NCBI GenBank assembly: GCA_003562365.1
Contig: PWVB01000452.1
Coordinates: forward strand, 1 to 34,708
Origin: Anaerolineae bacterium
GTDB taxonomy: Bacteria > Chloroflexota > Anaerolineae > B4-G1 > SLSP01
DNA: 34,708 bases
Direction: 5' to 3'
In this document: in pieces, positions 14,455 to 34,595 of the stretch
How the letters are laid out: each line of letters starts with the position of its first letter
How positions within the stretch are numbered: the first letter of the stretch is position 1
Position numbers and translations under genes: made by a program
The notes under the pieces: model-generated
What the model was told of the DNA's origin: nothing
What the model saw: the letters and a program-made list of their open reading frames with translations, nothing else
Database searches by the model: none

Positions 14455-16650
14455 TCATCGCCGTAGGCGCATCCCGTTCAAGATCACTAACAACGAGGCA
14501 CCGACATCCGCAGCAATCGCCATCCACAGCGTGGCTACACCCAGCAGCGCCAGTCCGAAGACCAACGCCTTGACTGCCAGGGCAAAAGCGATATTGACGC
14601 CAATCACCCTCCGGGTCCGACGACTCAGCCGCACCAACCAGGGCAGCTGCATCAGATCGTCGCCCATCAACACGATATCGGCGGTCTCCAACGCTTGATC
14701 GGCGCCTGCCCCACCCATCGCAATGCCGACGGCGGCCTGTGCCAGTGCCGGGGCGTCATTGATGCCATCGCCGACCATCGCCACAGCGTGGCCGGTCTCA
14801 GAGAGCTGGCGCACCGTGGCCACTTTGTCCTCGGGCAGTAACTCGGCCCGCACCTCGTCTACGTCAACTGCATCACCGATGGCGCGCGCCACGACAGCAC
14901 CATCGCCCGTCAGCATCACCGTGCGGATGCCACCGAGGGCCCGGAGTCCGCGGAGCGCAGCGCCGGCCTCAGCCCGCGGCGTGTCCGCTACCGCCAGGAT
15001 CGAGCAAACGTGCTCATCGTGACACACCAGCATAACGGTCTTGCCGTCGGCCGCCAGTTGCTGGGCCTCTATGCAAACCCGCTCCGAATGGGCCACCTGG
15101 GCATCGAAGAAGGGATGGCTGGCCACAGTCACCTGCTGACCGTCAACCCGCCCAATGACTCCGTGCCCGCTGAGGACGACTACGTCCTCAGCTGGATAGA
15201 CGGCGGCCTGTCGTGCAGCGGCCTCAGCGACCAACGCACGGGCTAAAGGATGCGAGGAGCGCGCCTCGACGGCGGCGGCGTAGTCAAGACCTTGATGGAT
15301 GTGCGAGCCGTCGTCACAGACCTCCAGCACATCCGTCACCACCGGTCGGCCCTCAGTCAAGGTGCCCGTCTTGTCAAAAGCGAAGACCTCGATATCGCCC
15401 AGGGTCTCTAGGGTGTGTCCACCTTTGACCAGGACGCCGCGCGCCGCAGCCTGAGCAAGCGCGCTCACAACACTAACTGGCGTACTGATGACCAAAGCGC
15501 ATGGGCAGGCGATAACCAGCAACTGCAGTGCCCGCATCAGCCACCCCGCCGGCCCCCAGAAAGGATTGCCGAAGAGCAGCGGCGGCCCCCCCGCCACCAA
15601 CACCGCGACGAGGGTGACTACTGGCGTGTAGATGCGAGCGAAGCGGTCAACAAACCGCTGGATAGGAGCCTGCCGTGCTTGGGCTTCGCGAACCAAAGCT
15701 ACCATCCGGTTGAGCGTGTTATCCTCTGCCCGTCGCCGGATCTCAACCTCCAGTGCGCCGAAGGTGTTGATCGTCCCGGCAAAGACCTCATCGCCCGGGC
15801 CCTTGTCGGCAGGGATGCTCTCCCCGGTGATTGCAGCCTGGTCGACGGCGCTGCGTCCGGAGACCACCGTCCCATCGACGCTAACTCGATCGCCTGGGCG
15901 GATCAGGATCCGATCGCCGATCTCCAACGCCTCAACAGGCACCTGGGTCAGAGCGCCAGTCAATTCGATGCGCCACGCCGTTGGAGGAACCAAACGCAGC
16001 AGTCCCTCGAGGGCACCTCGGGCTTTATCGGCTGCATAGCCCTCTAGGCCCTCTCCCAGTGCGAAGAGCACCACCACGACGGCAGCCTCAGCCCACTCAC
16101 CGATCAACGCCGCGCCGGCAACAGCGATCACCATAAGGGTGTTGATCCCGAGGCTGTGGGCGACCCAGACCTCCTGGACTGCATGACGAGCCACCGGAAT
16201 GCCACCAATGACAATGGCAGCAGCGTAGGCAGCGAGCCTGATCACCGGTGGGGCGCCGCCCCAGCCCAGCATCAGACCAACTGCGGTCAGCACGCCGGCT
16301 ATCAACGCCAACATCGTGTCTGTTGAGTCCAGAAGAAAACTCAGGAATCCAACTATCCCGCTGTCGCCAGACCGAGCCGCCGTCGGTACAACAAGGCGAT
16401 GCCCAGTCTCAGCAACGATCTGAGCAACCGGTGCGATGTCGAGGTCGGCGCTATATGCCTCCAGAGTCAGCATCCCGTTGCTGTGATTCACCTCGCAACT
16501 GTGGATGCCTGCCAGACGACCCACCGCCGCCTCGATACGCCCGGCGCAGTCCATACACGTCAACCCTTCGACGCGATAGGTCCTCACTTTCCGAGAGCCA
16601 ACCTCCGTGGCGCGGGCGACACCGGCTCCCACTGTCCTGCCTGTGTTCAT
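14455..16650 (-). CDS. cadA: Heavy-metal P1B-type ATPase, Cd/Zn/Pb exporter
   Basis: The protein is about 731 aa. An N-terminal HMA domain holds GLTCMDCAG (Cys ~32 and 35). The transmembrane metal motif CPC (C382-P383-C384) lies in ACPCALVISTP, the phosphorylation site is D426 in DKTGTLTEG, and SSHPLA and MVGDGINDAPALAQA follow. The last helices contain NIAFALAVKALVF and DVGASLLVILNGMRL, that is N(X)7K...DxG. This is the P1B-2 signature, which predicts export of Zn2+, Cd2+ or Pb2+. The ATG at 16650 overlaps the stop of the sensor gene (TGATG). A GTG one codon earlier is the alternative. Expression should be controlled by the ArsR-type sensor at the operator at 17059. Confidence 0.95.
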   Translation of the reverse strand: MNTGRTVGAGVARATEVGSRKVRTYRVEGLTCMDCAGRIEAAVGRLAGIHSCEVNHSNGMLTLEAYSADLDIAPVAQIVAETGHRLVVPTAARSGDSGIVGFLSFLLDSTDTMLALIAGVLTAVGLMLGWGGAPPVIRLAAYAAAIVIGGIPVARHAVQEVWVAHSLGINTLMVIAVAGAALIGEWAEAAVVVVLFALGEGLEGYAADKARGALEGLLRLVPPTAWRIELTGALTQVPVEALEIGDRILIRPGDRVSVDGTVVSGRSAVDQAAITGESIPADKGPGDEVFAGTINTFGALEVEIRRRAEDNTLNRMVALVREAQARQAPIQRFVDRFARIYTPVVTLVAVLVAGGPPLLFGNPFWGPAGWLMRALQLLVIACPCALVISTPVSVVSALAQAAARGVLVKGGHTLETLGDIEVFAFDKTGTLTEGRPVVTDVLEVCDDGSHIHQGLDYAAAVEARSSHPLARALVAEAAARQAAVYPAEDVVVLSGHGVIGRVDGQQVTVASHPFFDAQVAHSERVCIEAQQLAADGKTVMLVCHDEHVCSILAVADTPRAEAGAALRGLRALGGIRTVMLTGDGAVVARAIGDAVDVDEVRAELLPEDKVATVRQLSETGHAVAMVGDGINDAPALAQAAVGIAMGGAGADQALETADIVLMGDDLMQLPWLVRLSRRTRRVIGVNIAFALAVKALVFGLALLGVATLWMAIAADVGASLLVILNGMRLRR

Positions 16651-17045
16651 CACGCACTTGCCCCCACGGGCGCGGCATCATCGCTGCGAGCGTGGTGGCG
16701 GATATGCGCTAGACCTTGCTGGAAGAGGTCGCGGATATGATCATCGTCCAGGGCGTAGTAGACATGGCGCCCGTCCTTTGTGTAGCTGACCAGATCCATC
16801 TCGCGCAGCAGCGCCAGCTGATGCGATATCGCTGAATGGGTCAGGTCCAAGGCCTGGGCTAAATCGTGGACGCAATAGGTGTTCGTTGCCAGAGCGGAGA
16901 TTATGCGGATGCGGGTAGGATCGCTTAGCACTTTAAAGGTTTCTGCCAGCCGTTCCGCAAGCCGCTCCTCCAACACCTCCACCACCGCTCGATGGCAACC
17001 GGGCTCCACCTCTACCTCACGGCTGTCCACCTCTCTATCCAGCAT
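16650..17045 (-). CDS. cadC: ArsR/SmtB-family metal-sensing repressor (CadC-like)
   Basis: The 131-aa winged-helix protein has ETFKVLSDPTRIRIISAL and the recognition helix LTHSAISHQLALLREMDLV, followed by the wing SYTKDGRHVYYAL. The C-terminal helix carries D101-x-H103...H114-x2-H117, the spacing of the alpha-5 zinc site of SmtB. Cys58 and His60 in NTYCVHDL sit where CadC has its alpha-3N cysteines, and C17/H18 near the N-terminus could complete that site. It may thus have both metal sites. Metal binding should release DNA and allow cadA expression. The ribosome site AAGGGGG precedes the ATG, and a perfect 12-2-12 operator lies 14 bases upstream of the start. Confidence 0.95.
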   Translation of the reverse strand: MLDREVDSREVEVEPGCHRAVVEVLEERLAERLAETFKVLSDPTRIRIISALATNTYCVHDLAQALDLTHSAISHQLALLREMDLVSYTKDGRHVYYALDDDHIRDLFQQGLAHIRHHARSDDAAPVGASA

Positions 17046-29355: not shown

Positions 29356-30876
29356 ATGCACCTACACTATGCGGGCAGCCTGACAGCCCATAACGCCAAG
29401 TGTCATATCCAGCACTCCTTCGACGTGCCCGACCAGGCCGAGGTATTGAATATCGAGTTCCGCTTTGCACCAGCCGGCGCACACAGCGTCAGCAACATGC
29501 TGACACTGACCGTCTTTGATCCTGACGGGTTCCGCGGGGCAGGCCACCGCGGGGGTTCGCAGCATCAAGTTCGCATCACGATCGACAACGCAACGCCGGG
29601 CTACCTACCAGGTCCGCTCCCTGCCGGGCCCTGGATTGCGGTCATCGACACACACATGATTATGCCAGGTGAGCCGCTGAAGTACAGTTTAGACTTGATG
29701 ATCGAAACCGCTTCCAGCACCGATCACGGTAATCACCCGGAAGAGATGACAAGCGCCCGGAAGCCGGCTCATCGCGGACGCTCAGGTCTGATCCCTTCAG
29801 TCGGACGACCACAAGCAGCTTGGTACTGCGGTGATCTCCATGCCCACTCGCACCACTCCGACGCTGCCGAGTTTACCGTCGCTGACCTACTCGCCGCTGC
29901 GCGGCTCGCCGATCTGGATTTCGTTTTCCTCACCGACCACAATACGATCGCCGGACTGCACGAACTCGAGGATGACCACGAGGGCATCCTGGCGGCTGGC
30001 GGCATCGAGCTGACCACGTTCTGGGGGCATGCGCTGCAGCTCGGGGGCCGGAACTGGGTAGACTGGCGAGTGCGCCCCGGCACCGGTGAGATCGCCCGCA
30101 TCGTTGCCTCCGCTCGCGCGCAGGACCAAGTGTTTATCATCGCTCATCCGCAATCCGTTGGCGACCCGACCTGCACGGGATGCGCCTGGCGCTTTGGCGA
30201 GATGATGCCAGGGAAGGCACGCTTTGTCGAGGTATGGAATGGACCCTGGTGGGGAGACTCCAACAACGAGGCATCGTTAGCGCTTTGGTACGATTGGTTA
30301 AACCAGGGATGGCGACTGGTAGCAACAGCCGGGACCGATGCCCATGGGGCTGGCTTTGCGCGCCGCGCAAGCGCCGGACTGGGCTTCAGCGTCATCTATG
30401 CCGAGGCACTCACCGAGCCCGCGCTCCTGGACGGCCTGCGGGCGGGGCACCTCTACCTCAGCGCGGGTCCGAGGCTCCTCACAGAGATTCAACAAAACGC
30501 CTCCCATCGGTGGATGATGGGAGACACGCTGCCCCGCCTTGACGCCGATGAACCACTGAGCCTGAGAGTGCGGTGGGCTGGCTGCCCAGCTAAGGCCCAG
30601 CTTTACCTGATTGCCAACGGACGTCGCTGGACTACTCAGACGATCGAGGGCGCTGGCTCGGCTACTTGGCAGCTGACGCCCAAGGCGGCAGACTGGGTGC
30701 TTGCCGAGCTTAGAGGCCGCGATGGCGACCTACTCGGCGTCACCAATCCCATCTTCCTCGCGCCTACGCACCAAAGCCGACCCGAAGACCTGGCGTGTGG
30801 CAGCGATCTCCATCCGCGAAGTGTCCAGCGACCCCAACCGAAAACCAGCGCGCAAACGTCACGAGCCAACGCCTAA
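29356..30876 (+). CDS. PHP-domain metal-dependent hydrolase (CehA/McbA-type)
   Basis: This 506-aa protein has a beta-rich N-terminal domain (residues 1-~120). The PHP domain follows, from CGDLHAHSHHSDA (H162, H164) through LTDHNT (D194, H195), the Glu of GGIELTTFWGHAL, IIAHPQS, and ATAGTDAHG. These are the metal ligands of the polymerase-and-histidinol-phosphatase superfamily. The CehA/McbA subgroup has a carbaryl hydrolase among its members, but most substrates are unknown, often phosphoesters. The C-terminal ~90 residues form another beta domain (LRVRWAGCPAKAQLYLIANGRR). The ribosome site AAGGGAGAAG is close to the ATG. Its stop overlaps the stop of the convergent radical SAM gene by three bases (TAA against TAG). 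Confidence 0.85.
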   Translation: MHLHYAGSLTAHNAKCHIQHSFDVPDQAEVLNIEFRFAPAGAHSVSNMLTLTVFDPDGFRGAGHRGGSQHQVRITIDNATPGYLPGPLPAGPWIAVIDTHMIMPGEPLKYSLDLMIETASSTDHGNHPEEMTSARKPAHRGRSGLIPSVGRPQAAWYCGDLHAHSHHSDAAEFTVADLLAAARLADLDFVFLTDHNTIAGLHELEDDHEGILAAGGIELTTFWGHALQLGGRNWVDWRVRPGTGEIARIVASARAQDQVFIIAHPQSVGDPTCTGCAWRFGEMMPGKARFVEVWNGPWWGDSNNEASLALWYDWLNQGWRLVATAGTDAHGAGFARRASAGLGFSVIYAEALTEPALLDGLRAGHLYLSAGPRLLTEIQQNASHRWMMGDTLPRLDADEPLSLRVRWAGCPAKAQLYLIANGRRWTTQTIEGAGSATWQLTPKAADWVLAELRGRDGDLLGVTNPIFLAPTHQSRPEDLACGSDLHPRSVQRPQPKTSAQTSRANA

Positions 30877-32165
30877 GGACACTGGACCACGCCCTGAGCC
30901 CAAAGGCAGCCACCACAGGTGGGGAACGGATTGCCGAAGCAGTCAGTCTCGTTGTCGGCGGAGAGGTCGCAGCCCCCGCAAAGCGTGCAAGGCGAGAAGT
31001 CAAAGTCCTGCACACGCTCGCGGAAGTCAGCGTAGTCCGGTCTACGCCACAGGACATCGAGCTCGGTCTCGTTGACGTTTCCGACGGCATAGCTGCGCGA
31101 CCGTCGCTCACGGTTTTCGAGATAACTGGTGTGGTCGTGCAACAACGGAAGGCAAGGGCTGACCTCGCCGTTCCAAGCCACCGCCAACGCGCCACCCTCG
31201 ATAAACGGACAGCGGCTACGGTGCTGGGCCACCTTGCGGTCGCCCAGCGCCACGTTGGGAGCCACCCGCAGTAGCCTGCCTAGGACTGTCTGGGTTACAG
31301 CGGTGATATCCATGACCGGCAACGTCACCAGAGGGAAATCGGGCGTGGTGGGCACGTCCCGCTTGGTTGTCACCGCTGGCGTGTACAGTCGCTCGTCACA
31401 CATCTCGCGAGTATACGGCAGCACATTGGTGACCATGAACCGCGCGGCACCCAAAGTACGTCCCAGGCTGAGTACTCGTGTCAGCTCCCCAAAGTTGCTA
31501 CGCATTGCCACAAACGCAATCCCTAGCTCTGGCTGGGGCACGCTTGACGGCGGGCGTGCATCCCGAAAGGCTGTTATGTGATCCATCACCTGGCTCCACG
31601 CCGCTCCAGCTCGAATTTCCGAATAAGCCTGCACGTCGGCACCATCCAGCGAGACCCACAACGTATCCAGTCCAGCTGCGATCAGCTCTCGGGACAGATC
31701 AGGCGTAAGTAGGGTAGCGTTGGTGATCAGTGTGACCGAGGGGCTCACCCGTCGCGCAGCTGTCACCATCGCAACAATGTCAGGATGGCTCAGCGGCTCA
31801 CCCAAACCACCGAAGAAGATCTCGGGTGCCGGGTCGAAGTCCACCACGCCCTCCAAGATACGTTCGAAGGTCGCCTCAGCCATAAAGCCGGTAGACTCCT
31901 CCCACCGGTTGCGCACACAGGTCCGACACATCAGGTTGCAGTGGTTGGTCGCCTCTACGTATACACGCGCCGGGCGCAGCGTGGGCCGACGCAGATAGAT
32001 GCCGTTGGACTCCAGATCATAGCGTACGCGAGCCCCAGGCTGCAAGCCCAGTCGCACAGCAGCCTCGGCGGGAAGAATCAACCGCCCGTCACCATCGACC
32101 CTGGCCTGATCGGAAGACAGCGCCTCAACGGGACCGCCATCGTAGTCTCGGGGAATGAAGGTCAT
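30873..32165 (-). CDS. Tungsten-cofactor oxidoreductase radical SAM maturase-like protein (SPASM)
   Basis: This 430-aa protein has an N-terminal AbrB-like swapped-hairpin segment (DGDGRLILPAEAAVRLGLQPGARVRYDL, residues ~24-52). The radical SAM core begins at C76-x3-C80-x2-C83 in HCNLMCRTC, which binds the 4Fe-4S cluster. FFGGLGEPLSHPDIV and VLPYTREMCDERLY follow. The C-terminal part holds a Cys-rich SPASM-like region from CPFIEGG through CTLCGGCDLSADNETDC to FPTCGGCLWAQGV. The phrases around TREMCDERLY and the CGGCLWAQG tail match, from memory, the maturases paired with tungsten aldehyde ferredoxin oxidoreductases (cofactor-modifying). No such oxidoreductase gene lies in this window. The start ATG has GAGGTG before it. 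It follows the thioredoxin-like gene by 77 bases, with a hairpin in between. Confidence 0.85.
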   Translation of the reverse strand: MTFIPRDYDGGPVEALSSDQARVDGDGRLILPAEAAVRLGLQPGARVRYDLESNGIYLRRPTLRPARVYVEATNHCNLMCRTCVRNRWEESTGFMAEATFERILEGVVDFDPAPEIFFGGLGEPLSHPDIVAMVTAARRVSPSVTLITNATLLTPDLSRELIAAGLDTLWVSLDGADVQAYSEIRAGAAWSQVMDHITAFRDARPPSSVPQPELGIAFVAMRSNFGELTRVLSLGRTLGAARFMVTNVLPYTREMCDERLYTPAVTTKRDVPTTPDFPLVTLPVMDITAVTQTVLGRLLRVAPNVALGDRKVAQHRSRCPFIEGGALAVAWNGEVSPCLPLLHDHTSYLENRERRSRSYAVGNVNETELDVLWRRPDYADFRERVQDFDFSPCTLCGGCDLSADNETDCFGNPFPTCGGCLWAQGVVQCP

Positions 32166-32242: not shown

Positions 32243-32482
32243 TCAGCGGGCTGCCTGCAGCCACCCGACGATCTCCTGGATACTGGGTAATCGGCCCGAG
32301 GCCTTCACCTCACCGTCAACCACCAGGCCTGGCGTACTTGCGATCGGATAGTTCATAATCTCGTTGATATCCGTCACTTTCACGAAGGTCGCCTCTACCC
32401 CGGCCTCTTCCGCCGCCTGATGCGCCGTTCGCTCGAGGCGCTTACACTTCGGACAACCTGTTCCTAGAATCTTGATCTCCAT
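32243..32482 (-). CDS. Small thioredoxin-like redox-active disulfide protein
   Basis: The 79-aa protein has the thioredoxin/glutaredoxin fold, with the active-site CPKC (C10-C13) right after the first strand (MEIKILGTG). The conserved cis-Pro is in IASTPGLVVDGEV. This size and motif match the small 'redox-active disulfide protein 2' group. These proteins often sit next to permeases of the ArsP/DUF318 type and may supply electrons to them or to metal reduction, which is inference. The start ATG is 20 bases after the permease stop, so they form one operon. Confidence 0.88.
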   Translation of the reverse strand: MEIKILGTGCPKCKRLERTAHQAAEEAGVEATFVKVTDINEIMNYPIASTPGLVVDGEVKASGRLPSIQEIVGWLQAAR

Positions 32483-32502: not shown

Positions 32503-33900
32503 TTAACGAACCACCCACCCATAGATCAGCCCTGAAAGGGTACTGAACACAGTGACCAAAACCACGTAGAGTGCCGTCTTCTTATACCCAATGACCTTGT
32601 TTGTGATCAGAATCGACTGCAGACTGGCGACCGGATCAGACAGCAGGTAAGCCAGGAGGGGCCCGCGCTGCATGCCCAAGGCGAGAAAAGTCTGCGCAAT
32701 CGGCACCTCTACCAGCGTCGGGAAGTACATAAACATCCCAAACAGGACGCCGGCGAGGTTGGCCCAGACGGTATTGTTGCCCGCGATGGTGCGGATCCAA
32801 GTAGGCGGTATTAACGCGCGTGCCATACCTGCCGCGAAGACTCCCACAATCAGGAGCGGCATGATCTGTTTGACAAAACGCCAGACCTCCCAGAGCCACT
32901 CTTGGATCTCGTAAGTCTCAAACTGCGTCACTGCCATCCACCAGACAGCGCCGATCAACAGAACTTCAGCAATCAAGGTCCCCGTCACGCCAACGGTCAG
33001 GCCGTCCAAGCCTACCGTCACCGAAAGCGACGCCAAAAGCAATGTCAGGGAAATCAACCCCAGAGCCGCATAGGTCCAGGTGTTGTAGCCCTCATCGACT
33101 CGCTCCAGACCCTTCCACGCGGTTGCCCCGATCGTCGATAGCATACCGATCAGCACGACGCCGTGGACACTAACCCCCTCGATACCTAGCGCCTCGTTAG
33201 GCGGGACAACACCGTCGAGCCAACCTTGCAGCCGGGCGGCCCAATGTGTCGGCGCGCCGACGCCGGGAGTGGCAGCCAGCGCCACCGGCGACCCACCTAG
33301 CCTGAAACTGGCGTAGGTGTTGGTCAGCAGCCCCACCTGCAGCGTGCCGGCGATCAGGATGCTCAGCAGCAGGCCGAAAAAGACCCAAGTGCGCCCGGGC
33401 ACTCGGCCCTCCTGTGCAAAGGCGTCCACTGCGCTGGTCGCGGCGTCGTGAGCAGCGTCATCCTTGCGGAAGACCCCGGCCATCACAAGTCCGATCCCAA
33501 CTCCGAACAGGATCGAGAGCACGACCCGCGCTAAGGCGATGTCCATACCAATCGCCACCCCGGTCAACGAGATGGCCAGGATATTAACCGCCGGCCCCAC
33601 GAAGAGAAACGTGATCGCCGGCCCCAGTCCTGCTCCTTTTTTGTGGATGCTAGCAAAGAGCGGCATAATGGTACAGGAACACACTGCCAGCACGAAGCCG
33701 CCGATCGCTGCCGCTGGATAGGAGATCCACTTGGGTGTCTTGCGACCCAAGTACTTGGTAATCGCCTCCTTAGGAACCAAAGCAGCCAGCGCACCGGCGA
33801 TCAGAAACGCCGGCAGCAGACAGAGCAGCACGTGTGCCGCCAGATAGGCCGCCAGGCTGCCCAAACCAGTCTGAACCAGTTCCCCCAAAACCTGCAGCAT
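32503..33900 (-). CDS. Permease of the ArsP/DUF318 family (metal or organoarsenical efflux type)
   Basis: The protein is about 465 aa with 10 or more membrane helices. The first half shows the CSC motif (C74, C76) in FVLAVCSCTIMPLFASIHKKGAGLGPAITFLFVGPAVN. The second half repeats the pattern in FAAGMARALIPPTWIRTIAGNNTVWANLAGVLFGMFMYFPTLVEVPIAQTFLALGMQRGP. This two-fold arrangement is that of PF03773 permeases, of which ArsP exports trivalent organoarsenicals. Others are proposed zinc or copper exporters. The substrate is not fixed by sequence. ATG 33900 has AGGAGGTGCC before it. An ATG at 33918 lies too close to its own ribosome site. A consensus promoter and a palindrome lie upstream, so regulated expression is likely, although no repressor gene is adjacent in the window. 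Confidence 0.87.
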   Translation of the reverse strand: MLQVLGELVQTGLGSLAAYLAAHVLLCLLPAFLIAGALAALVPKEAITKYLGRKTPKWISYPAAAIGGFVLAVCSCTIMPLFASIHKKGAGLGPAITFLFVGPAVNILAISLTGVAIGMDIALARVVLSILFGVGIGLVMAGVFRKDDAAHDAATSAVDAFAQEGRVPGRTWVFFGLLLSILIAGTLQVGLLTNTYASFRLGGSPVALAATPGVGAPTHWAARLQGWLDGVVPPNEALGIEGVSVHGVVLIGMLSTIGATAWKGLERVDEGYNTWTYAALGLISLTLLLASLSVTVGLDGLTVGVTGTLIAEVLLIGAVWWMAVTQFETYEIQEWLWEVWRFVKQIMPLLIVGVFAAGMARALIPPTWIRTIAGNNTVWANLAGVLFGMFMYFPTLVEVPIAQTFLALGMQRGPLLAYLLSDPVASLQSILITNKVIGYKKTALYVVLVTVFSTLSGLIYGWVVR

Positions 33901-33990
33901 CGGCACCTCCTGGTGCATTACTCCTCAAGTCGGGCGTCCAGTGCCCAAGAAGAAGAAGACGGCGCCAAGTTAAGCTCGACACCGCCACAA

Positions 33991-34042
33991 TCATATTCAT
34001 CGAACTAGATATGAGTATATCGCCATCCCCCCGCGTTGTCAA
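33991..34042 (-). promoter_or_regulatory. Promoter and palindromic operator of the permease operon
   Basis: On the minus strand, TTGACA (34042-34037) and TATACT (34019-34014) with a 17-base spacer form a near-consensus promoter. TCATAT-N12-ATATGA (33991-34014) starts at the edge of the -10 and covers the likely transcription start. The half-site resembles the TCATAT of the cad operator, so an ArsR-type repressor could bind here. Confidence 0.7.
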
Positions 34043-34175: not shown

Positions 34176-34205
34176 TTGACAGGCAAAGACACCTCGTCCT
34201 ATAAT
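34176..34205 (+). promoter_or_regulatory. Consensus promoter before the broken polygalacturonase gene
   Basis: TTGACA (34176-34181) and TATAAT (34200-34205) are both perfect hexamers, with an 18-base spacer. The start codon is 88 bases downstream. Confidence 0.75.
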
Positions 34206-34292
34206 GATCGTGTTGAACAAGACTCGCGTTGGCGTTCGTTCGCATTATCCCAAGGATTGCAGCTTCCCATTCACCACAATGGAGGGAGTAGG

Positions 34293-34595
34293 ATGATTGA
34301 TGTACGCAGCTTCGGCGCAGTGGGCGACGGGCAGACATTAGACACCGCCGCCCTCCAGAGGGCGCTGGACGCCTGCAGGGACGCAGGCGGTGGTGAGGTC
34401 ACGAGGTCACGCACGATACCTGCCGGCCGCTAACTGACCGGCACCCTGCGAGTTCACAGCTATACCACCCTGAACATCACCCCAGGCGCAACCCTCTTCA
34501 GCAGTCCACGGATCGAGGGCTACACGCACGATCCCCGCGGCAAGGACGGTAATCAGACAGGCTATCACCTGGTTTACCAAACTGTGCCAACTTGA
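34293..34595 (+). pseudogene. Broken 5' end of a polygalacturonase-like gene (GH28 / pectate lyase 3)
   Basis: The start ATG 34293 has GGAGGGAG upstream. The frame opens with VRSFGAVGDGQTLDTAALQRALDACRDAGGGEV, the classic beginning of GH28 polygalacturonases and related right-handed beta-helix pectinases. At 34431 a TAA falls exactly where Tyr is expected in PAGRYLTGTL. The same frame then continues with LTGTLRVHSYTTLNITPGATLF and GYTHDPRGKDGNQTGYHLVYQT, all family-like. Just before this, an extra 9 bases are present next to the direct repeat GAGGTCAC-GAGGTCAC (the first G at 34395). After HLVYQT the family match ends and TGA stops the frame at 34593. The gene thus carries a nonsense codon and has lost the rest. 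A sequencing error could explain the TAA but not the loss of the 3' part. Confidence 0.75.

Follow-up and report, generated by a model that had tools for sequence, protein, structure and literature searches.

What is the function of a radical SAM enzyme that resembles the maturases of tungsten-dependent aldehyde oxidoreductases (AOR) when its locus encodes no such oxidoreductase? This question is raised by a gene of an Anaerolineae bacterium, carried by the window, that is the whole stretch of 34,708 nucleotides analysed here. An initial annotation, made from the sequence alone, had described a protein with the radical SAM cluster motif, SPASM cysteines and a fused AbrB-like segment, and had left the choice between a tungsten-enzyme partner encoded elsewhere and another substrate. 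In what follows, the protein, its operon and the genomic contexts of its family are considered in turn, and the possible functions are then weighed.

The radical SAM protein and its nearest named families

The features of the gene and of its 3′ neighbour are as follows.

30873-32165, minus strand: AbrB-like/radical SAM/SPASM protein, 430 aa (open frame, domain matches, model, cysteine conservation)
31986-32108, minus strand: AbrB/MazE-like N-terminal segment, residues 20-60 (PF04014 sub-threshold, matches of relatives, model)
31557-31955, minus strand: radical SAM core, residues 71-203, CX3CX2C at C76/C80/C83 (PF04055 above cut-off)
30876-31211, minus strand: SPASM domain and C-terminal tail, residues 319-430 (PF13186 above cut-off)
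29356-30876, plus strand: CehA/McbA-type PHP metallohydrolase, 506 aa, convergent with the radical SAM gene

The cluster motif and the SPASM cysteines are readily recovered. With the Pfam models, the protein reaches 52.8 bits for Radical_SAM (PF04055, cut-off 29.5) and 46.3 bits for SPASM (PF13186, cut-off 21.5). The three cysteines of the CX3CX2C motif are present in 65/65 rows of the family alignment. Nine further cysteines of the SPASM domain and tail (positions 319, 338, 393, 396, 399, 409, 417, 420, and 429) are also kept in all 65 rows, C429 in 64, which brings the conserved cysteines to twelve. From their number, these nine residues would suffice for two auxiliary clusters. The AbrB-like segment requires a distinction. 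In the window protein itself, PF04014 stays below the Pfam cut-off (16.8 bits against 24.7). However, 22 of the 65 family members match it at E ≤ 0.01 (best 5.3e-8) and the predicted model has short beta/alpha/beta elements at this front end, which argues that the segment is real at the family level.

The AlphaFold2 model, built from the 65-row alignment, has a mean pLDDT of 84.1 and a pTM of 0.86. Its closest solved fold is that of BlsE (Z 22.1, rmsd 3.2, 276 aligned), and ChlB, anSME, CteB, DesII, SkfB, SuiB, MoaA, and PqqE are also near. Because small-molecule enzymes (BlsE, DesII, MoaA) stand in this list together with peptide- or protein-modifying ones (ChlB, anSME, CteB, SkfB, SuiB), the fold cannot pick the type of substrate.

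Among named models, the best is TIGR04317 (W_rSAM_matur), which agrees with the initial assignment to the tungsten maturases as far as closeness is concerned. The match spans residues 66-430 but gives 287.6 bits, under the curated cut-off of 380. The second-best model, TIGR04311 (rSAM_Geo_metal, for a putative metalloenzyme maturase), gives 228.2 bits, and its cut-off of 400 is not reached either. No NCBIfam model names the protein as an enzyme of ars operons. The likeness to TIGR04317 includes full-length similarity, the same cysteine pattern, the AbrB-like front end of the relatives and the location of some sub-family members beside AORs. The differences are the score, the arsenic-type operon with its operator described below, and the position in the tree. 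Indeed, in the 111-row tree, the 93 window-like rows and the 18 rows of the type scoring over the cut-off lie on opposite sides of a starred branch. In 400 genomes of the phylum, TIGR04317 is matched at E ≤ 1e-50 in 24 and above its cut-off in only five. The window-like type scores about 268-299 bits in full-length matches, and both types occur together in two genomes, G162 and G272.

As noticed initially, the gene is convergent with that of the PHP protein (246.5 bits against the CehA/McbA model NF038032, cut-off 80), with 4 nt in common. The overlap looks incidental because in G001, a genome of the same genus, a short-chain dehydrogenase stands 3′ of the radical SAM gene; the PHP protein was judged unrelated and a functional tie was dropped. 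A role as a RiPP peptide maturase was also set aside, no candidate precursor being recognised among ORFs of at least 50 aa adjoining the gene. Three type-A relatives show a conserved 61-aa ORF just 5′ of their radical SAM genes (L050:6063-6248, L051:6926-7111, L053:2691-2876); by eye, it has no likeness to a precursor.

A probable operon with an ArsP-family permease and a thioredoxin

Upstream of the radical SAM gene, two genes of the same strand, missed by the initial annotation, are preceded by a promoter and an operator-like site.

32243-32482, minus strand: 79-aa thioredoxin-like protein with a CPKC motif, MTH895/ArsE family (TIGR00412, PF13192)
32503-33918, minus strand: ArsP_1-family permease, 471 aa (PF03773; orthologues in ars operons)
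33992-34013, no strand: ArsR-type operator-like inverted repeat CATATTCA-N6-TGAATATG, 2 mismatches (motif of relatives)
34014-34042, minus strand: sigma-70-like promoter TTGACA-17-TATACT (11/12), reading into the permease-thioredoxin-radical SAM operon

The thioredoxin scores 104.4 bits against TIGR00412 (cut-off 62) and the permease 228 bits against PF03773 (cut-off 32.3); the latter protein matches the broad ArsP_1 family only and no substrate-specific model. The order is permease, thioredoxin and radical SAM, with gaps of 20 nt and 77 nt, respectively. Only two ArsP_1 matches are found in the genome in all, and the thioredoxin of the operon is its only strong stand-alone Thioredoxin_3 gene. 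Thus, the gene has a partner operon of another kind, composed of ArsP and thioredoxin with an ArsR-type operator, which by the initial annotation's own standard counts against its tungsten reading. The same gene order is retained in G001 (81, 81, and 68% identity), where a glutaredoxin-domain protein precedes the operon. It is also seen at locus L197 of the distant genome G064, with ArsR and ACR3.

Orthologues of the permease (E ≤ 1e-40) occur in 22 of 60 relatives. Of 16 permease-orthologue loci, 14 have a same-strand thioredoxin no more than about 1.5 kb away, and the remaining two are truncated where their contig ends. An ArsR gene shares the strand of the permease in 11 of the 16, ACR3 is found in five and ArsF/ArsG in one. 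None of the 16 loci contains the radical SAM gene, which is therefore an optional addition to the arsenic module. At L243:4007-10722 (G054), the ArsP orthologue has an AOR 1.8 kb upstream in the same orientation; three thioredoxins and an FeS protein follow, and no radical SAM gene of this family is present.

The TTGACA-17-TATACT promoter is the best one on the operon strand and the operator-like site abuts its -10 box, directly downstream of it. The motif was assembled by eye from the ArsR-promoter sites of relatives (L080, L093, L122, L140). It occurs once in the window against 0.04 expected, a somewhat optimistic expectation since the motif was assembled in this way and the CATAT...ATATG repeat had been spotted by eye before the motif search. 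A strict inverted-repeat search of the window leader gave nothing above shuffles; the operator emerged solely with the motif of the relatives. Related loci totalling 1767 kb contain 29 sites at up to 3 mismatches, where 4.3 would be expected. With up to 2 mismatches, 16 of 16 sites are in arsenic-type loci. Of 13 sites checked, eight are 19-49 bp away from a match to an ArsR gene. In G001, one site precedes the first gene of the operon. At L078 and L090, a site is found 48 bp and 85 bp, respectively, before the radical SAM match.

No arsR gene adjoins the window operon. The sole ArsR/SmtB-like gene found in the window (16650-17045) is far from it and has no CVC motif. The closest ArsR of the genome is on another contig, with CVS in place of CVC, and neither an operator nor arsenic genes are recognised around it.

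Other features of the window may be mentioned. At 14455-17045, the gene of a heavy-metal P-type ATPase is immediately preceded, on its own strand, by that of an SmtB/CzrA-like regulator, and the pair probably represents a zinc/cadmium-type efflux system. Between the operon promoter and the permease start, a terminator-like hairpin of 12 pairs followed by a T-rich stretch (33958-33986) is a possible attenuator; Rfam gives no match in the window. Finally, at 34176-34438, a divergent 12/12 promoter-like site is followed, at the end of the contig, by a short ORF resembling, by eye, a truncated pectate-lyase-type gene.

Genomic contexts of the family

Contexts were counted over 111 loci, after exclusion of the duplicates L074, L108, L150, and L153 (judged from their length and content to be the same contigs as L046, L191, L192, and L187). 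An AOR lies within 1.5 kb in 27 of the 93 non-redundant window-like loci and in four of the 18 members of the other branch. In 21 of the 93, an arsenic-type or thioredoxin marker stands in the same orientation at no more than 1.5 kb, these linkage counts being lower bounds because 24 of the 93 loci have less than 1.5 kb on one side. AOR and arsenic-type markers never occur together within this distance (0/93; hypergeometric P 2.4e-4, loci taken as independent). Thioredoxin is the commonest close arsenic-type neighbour (16/93 within 1.5 kb, 17/111 within 1 kb). The arsenic permease next to the enzyme varies in type, with ArsP in six loci, ArsG in four and ACR3 in four; the ArsG and ArsF neighbours score above their cut-offs. 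Over the 111 loci, the density per 100 kb falls from 8.1 within 1 kb to 0.5 at 6-10 kb for thioredoxin, from 13.3 to 0.5 for AOR and from 1.9 to 0 for ArsG, whereas control clusters (ABC-transporter, kinase) show no such fall with distance.

On the 111-row tree, labels assigned within 4 kb give 35 AOR rows, 26 arsenic-type rows and 50 without label. At least nine AOR/arsenic changes are required, against an average of 19.8 and a minimum of 14 in 200 shuffles. Hence, the two contexts are clustered on the tree yet repeatedly exchanged. The window protein and that of G001 belong to an 11-row clade (SH-aLRT 88) with six arsenic-type, two AOR and three unlabelled rows. In both AOR rows of this clade, L078 and L085, an ArsR with a CVCH motif is directly upstream. 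There (L078:9316-14149 and L085), the order is ArsR, radical SAM gene, protoglobin-domain protein and AOR, so that the AOR is apparently under arsenic-type control. A search for residues diagnostic of AOR- or arsenic-linked members was not retained: the total variation of the best columns, 0.72, is only a little above the highest value of 100 label shuffles, 0.67, these columns track the AOR clade, and no active-site column cleanly splits the contexts.

A recurrent arsenic-type cassette, whole or partial, is observed at L106, L134, L138, L091, L133, L152, L088, L079, L093, and L185. It comprises ArsR, a GcvH-like protein, two DGC proteins, an OsmC-like protein and a radical SAM protein of the same family. 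Thioredoxin, CMD/AhpD-like and FeS-domain proteins also belong to it, and some loci add ArsD and ArsA. The cassette looks like a putative lipoyl/thiol-carrier system. At L059:1119-2561 (G027), the type-A radical SAM gene that comes after DGC, OsmC and thioredoxin genes is split between two reading frames.

Comparison with known arsenic systems

By its place in an arsenic operon beside an exporter, the radical SAM enzyme recalls ArsL of the arsinothricin cluster arsQML, which forms a C-As bond (PMC8552651). According to the part of that article used here, ArsL has only three conserved cysteines and a single cluster, whereas the window protein has a SPASM domain with nine more cysteines, and other partners. 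The operon also resembles those of the ArsP, ArsEFG and ACR3 types by its ArsP-family permease, its ArsE-family thioredoxin and its ArsR-type operator, and ArsF and ArsG stand beside sub-family members at L104, L105, and L112. It differs from ArsP/ACR3 operons in that neither ArsR nor ACR3 adjoins it. In the sections of PMC6205960 considered, no radical SAM/SPASM member of ars operons is described. In those of PMC10138600, the radical SAM protein is NitD of a nitrilase cluster. The model of ArsS, the arsenosugar radical SAM protein, is absent among the matches listed, i.e., the best 25 of 37 families. The fold, the enzyme class and the nearest named family are already known; among the titles and abstracts retrieved from an open-access full-text library, no description was found of this enzyme in ars operons or with ArsR operators.

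Possible functions of the enzyme

Considering the gene neighbourhood and the operator, the explanation that we cautiously prefer, and hold to be somewhat on the probable side, is that the enzyme takes part in arsenical detoxification, in an operon controlled by ArsR, rather than being dedicated to the maturation of a tungsten enzyme. In this model, the three genes would be co-transcribed as one operon, permease first and radical SAM last, once arsenic(III) has bound to an ArsR-type repressor and made it leave the operator. The SAM-binding [4Fe-4S] cluster would generate a 5′-deoxyadenosyl radical, the SPASM auxiliary clusters serving in electron transfer or substrate binding. The enzyme would then alter an arsenical, a C-As bond being formed, broken or remodelled, perhaps on thiol-bound arsenic. 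The ArsE-like thioredoxin would provide thiol electrons and ArsP would export a trivalent organoarsenical. As far as the consulted part of PMC6205960 goes, ArsP exports trivalent organoarsenicals and not arsenite, so that the operon would be sensible with an enzyme that makes or reshapes an organoarsenical. The C-As bond formation reported for ArsL, in the passages used, offers a precedent for such chemistry. Whereas gene order, protein families, operator-like site and conservation in relatives are observed, the joint transcription, the role of ArsR, the substrate and every step of the chemistry are inferred. Against this explanation, many sub-family members have no nearby arsenic gene and 27/93 are beside an AOR; moreover, ArsR does not adjoin the operon, the enzyme is optional and the contexts are intermixed on the tree.

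A second possibility would be that the enzyme modifies a protein partner of its operon post-translationally, in the way in which other SPASM enzymes act on peptides and proteins; the partner would most likely be the ArsE-like thioredoxin, which would thereby be helped to bind or reduce arsenicals; in AOR loci, the target would be the AOR or a ThiS-like carrier. The frequency of thioredoxin among the close neighbours and the many peptide- or protein-modifying enzymes among the closest folds are consistent with this idea, and a protein-modifying role suits loci with an AOR as well as those with a thioredoxin. However, the arsenic-linked loci L105, L122, and L130 have no adjoining thioredoxin, and BlsE, DesII and MoaA, which act on small molecules, are in the same fold list. 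This mechanism is nearly as economical as arsenical chemistry, for it also accounts for the AOR-linked relatives, which would act on a different protein partner. We regard it as unlikely.

Less likely is a third model, in which the protein is a maturase serving in trans the tungsten-cofactor oxidoreductases of the genome, its arsenic-type neighbourhood being secondary. As stated in the initial annotation, the window encodes no AOR; the genome has ten AOR matches, none of them on the window's contig. It has no second strong TIGR04317-like gene either, the next best match reaching 83 bits. Together with TIGR04317 as the best named model over the whole length, the AOR-linked members of both branches and the ThiS and DUF1952 proteins that accompany such members, these data would fit a maturase in trans. 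However, the score is 92 bits under the curated cut-off, the operon bears an arsenic-type operator and AOR and arsenic-type neighbours are never found together within 1.5 kb. Furthermore, AORs are encoded in 35 of 35 relatives examined, among which G001 has the radical SAM gene and G002 a remnant. The other 33 show no family member, their matches to the window protein being no better than E 5.5e-16 where family members reach 1e-38 or better in the same search; for one of them, G004, the absence is uncertain, its permease being cut by the contig end. Genomes rich in AOR are among these 33, for instance G028 (97% complete, 9 matches) and G024 (100%, 8). This distribution argues that the AORs of the group do not generally depend on the gene. 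At L214 of G002, which belongs to the same genus, only the last 26 codons of the gene are left, owing to a recent loss or to a rearranged contig. Tungstate transport was also considered; the genome has four matches to PF12849, which decide nothing because this family presumably also includes phosphate-type binding proteins. Altogether, we consider a maturase acting in trans quite unlikely. Of the two options of the initial annotation, another substrate is thus favoured; a partner encoded elsewhere is conceivable in principle, given the ten AOR matches, but many AOR-bearing relatives do without the gene.

Returning to the arsenical-detoxification operon, a bolder proposal, doubtful at this stage, may be formulated. 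Besides ArsL and ArsS, another branch of radical SAM enzymes could act on arsenic. Derived from tungsten maturases and endowed with SPASM domains, its members would synthesise or break down an organoarsenical not yet described, with ArsP or ArsG as its exporter and ArsR as the regulator; the AORs of L078 and L085, which have this enzyme beside them under the same ArsR type, would then be arsenic-responsive tungsten enzymes.

Implications

Because its nearest model is that of a tungsten maturase, the sub-family may be read as such, which would be misleading if a large part of it acts on arsenic. If the family has repeatedly switched between AOR loci and ars operons, it is tempting to speculate that the two contexts share some chemistry, for instance that of dithiol or dithiolene groups. 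With an operator, a small operon and a single candidate enzyme, the idea is directly testable. If true, it would point to an organoarsenical metabolism in uncultured anaerobic Chloroflexota.
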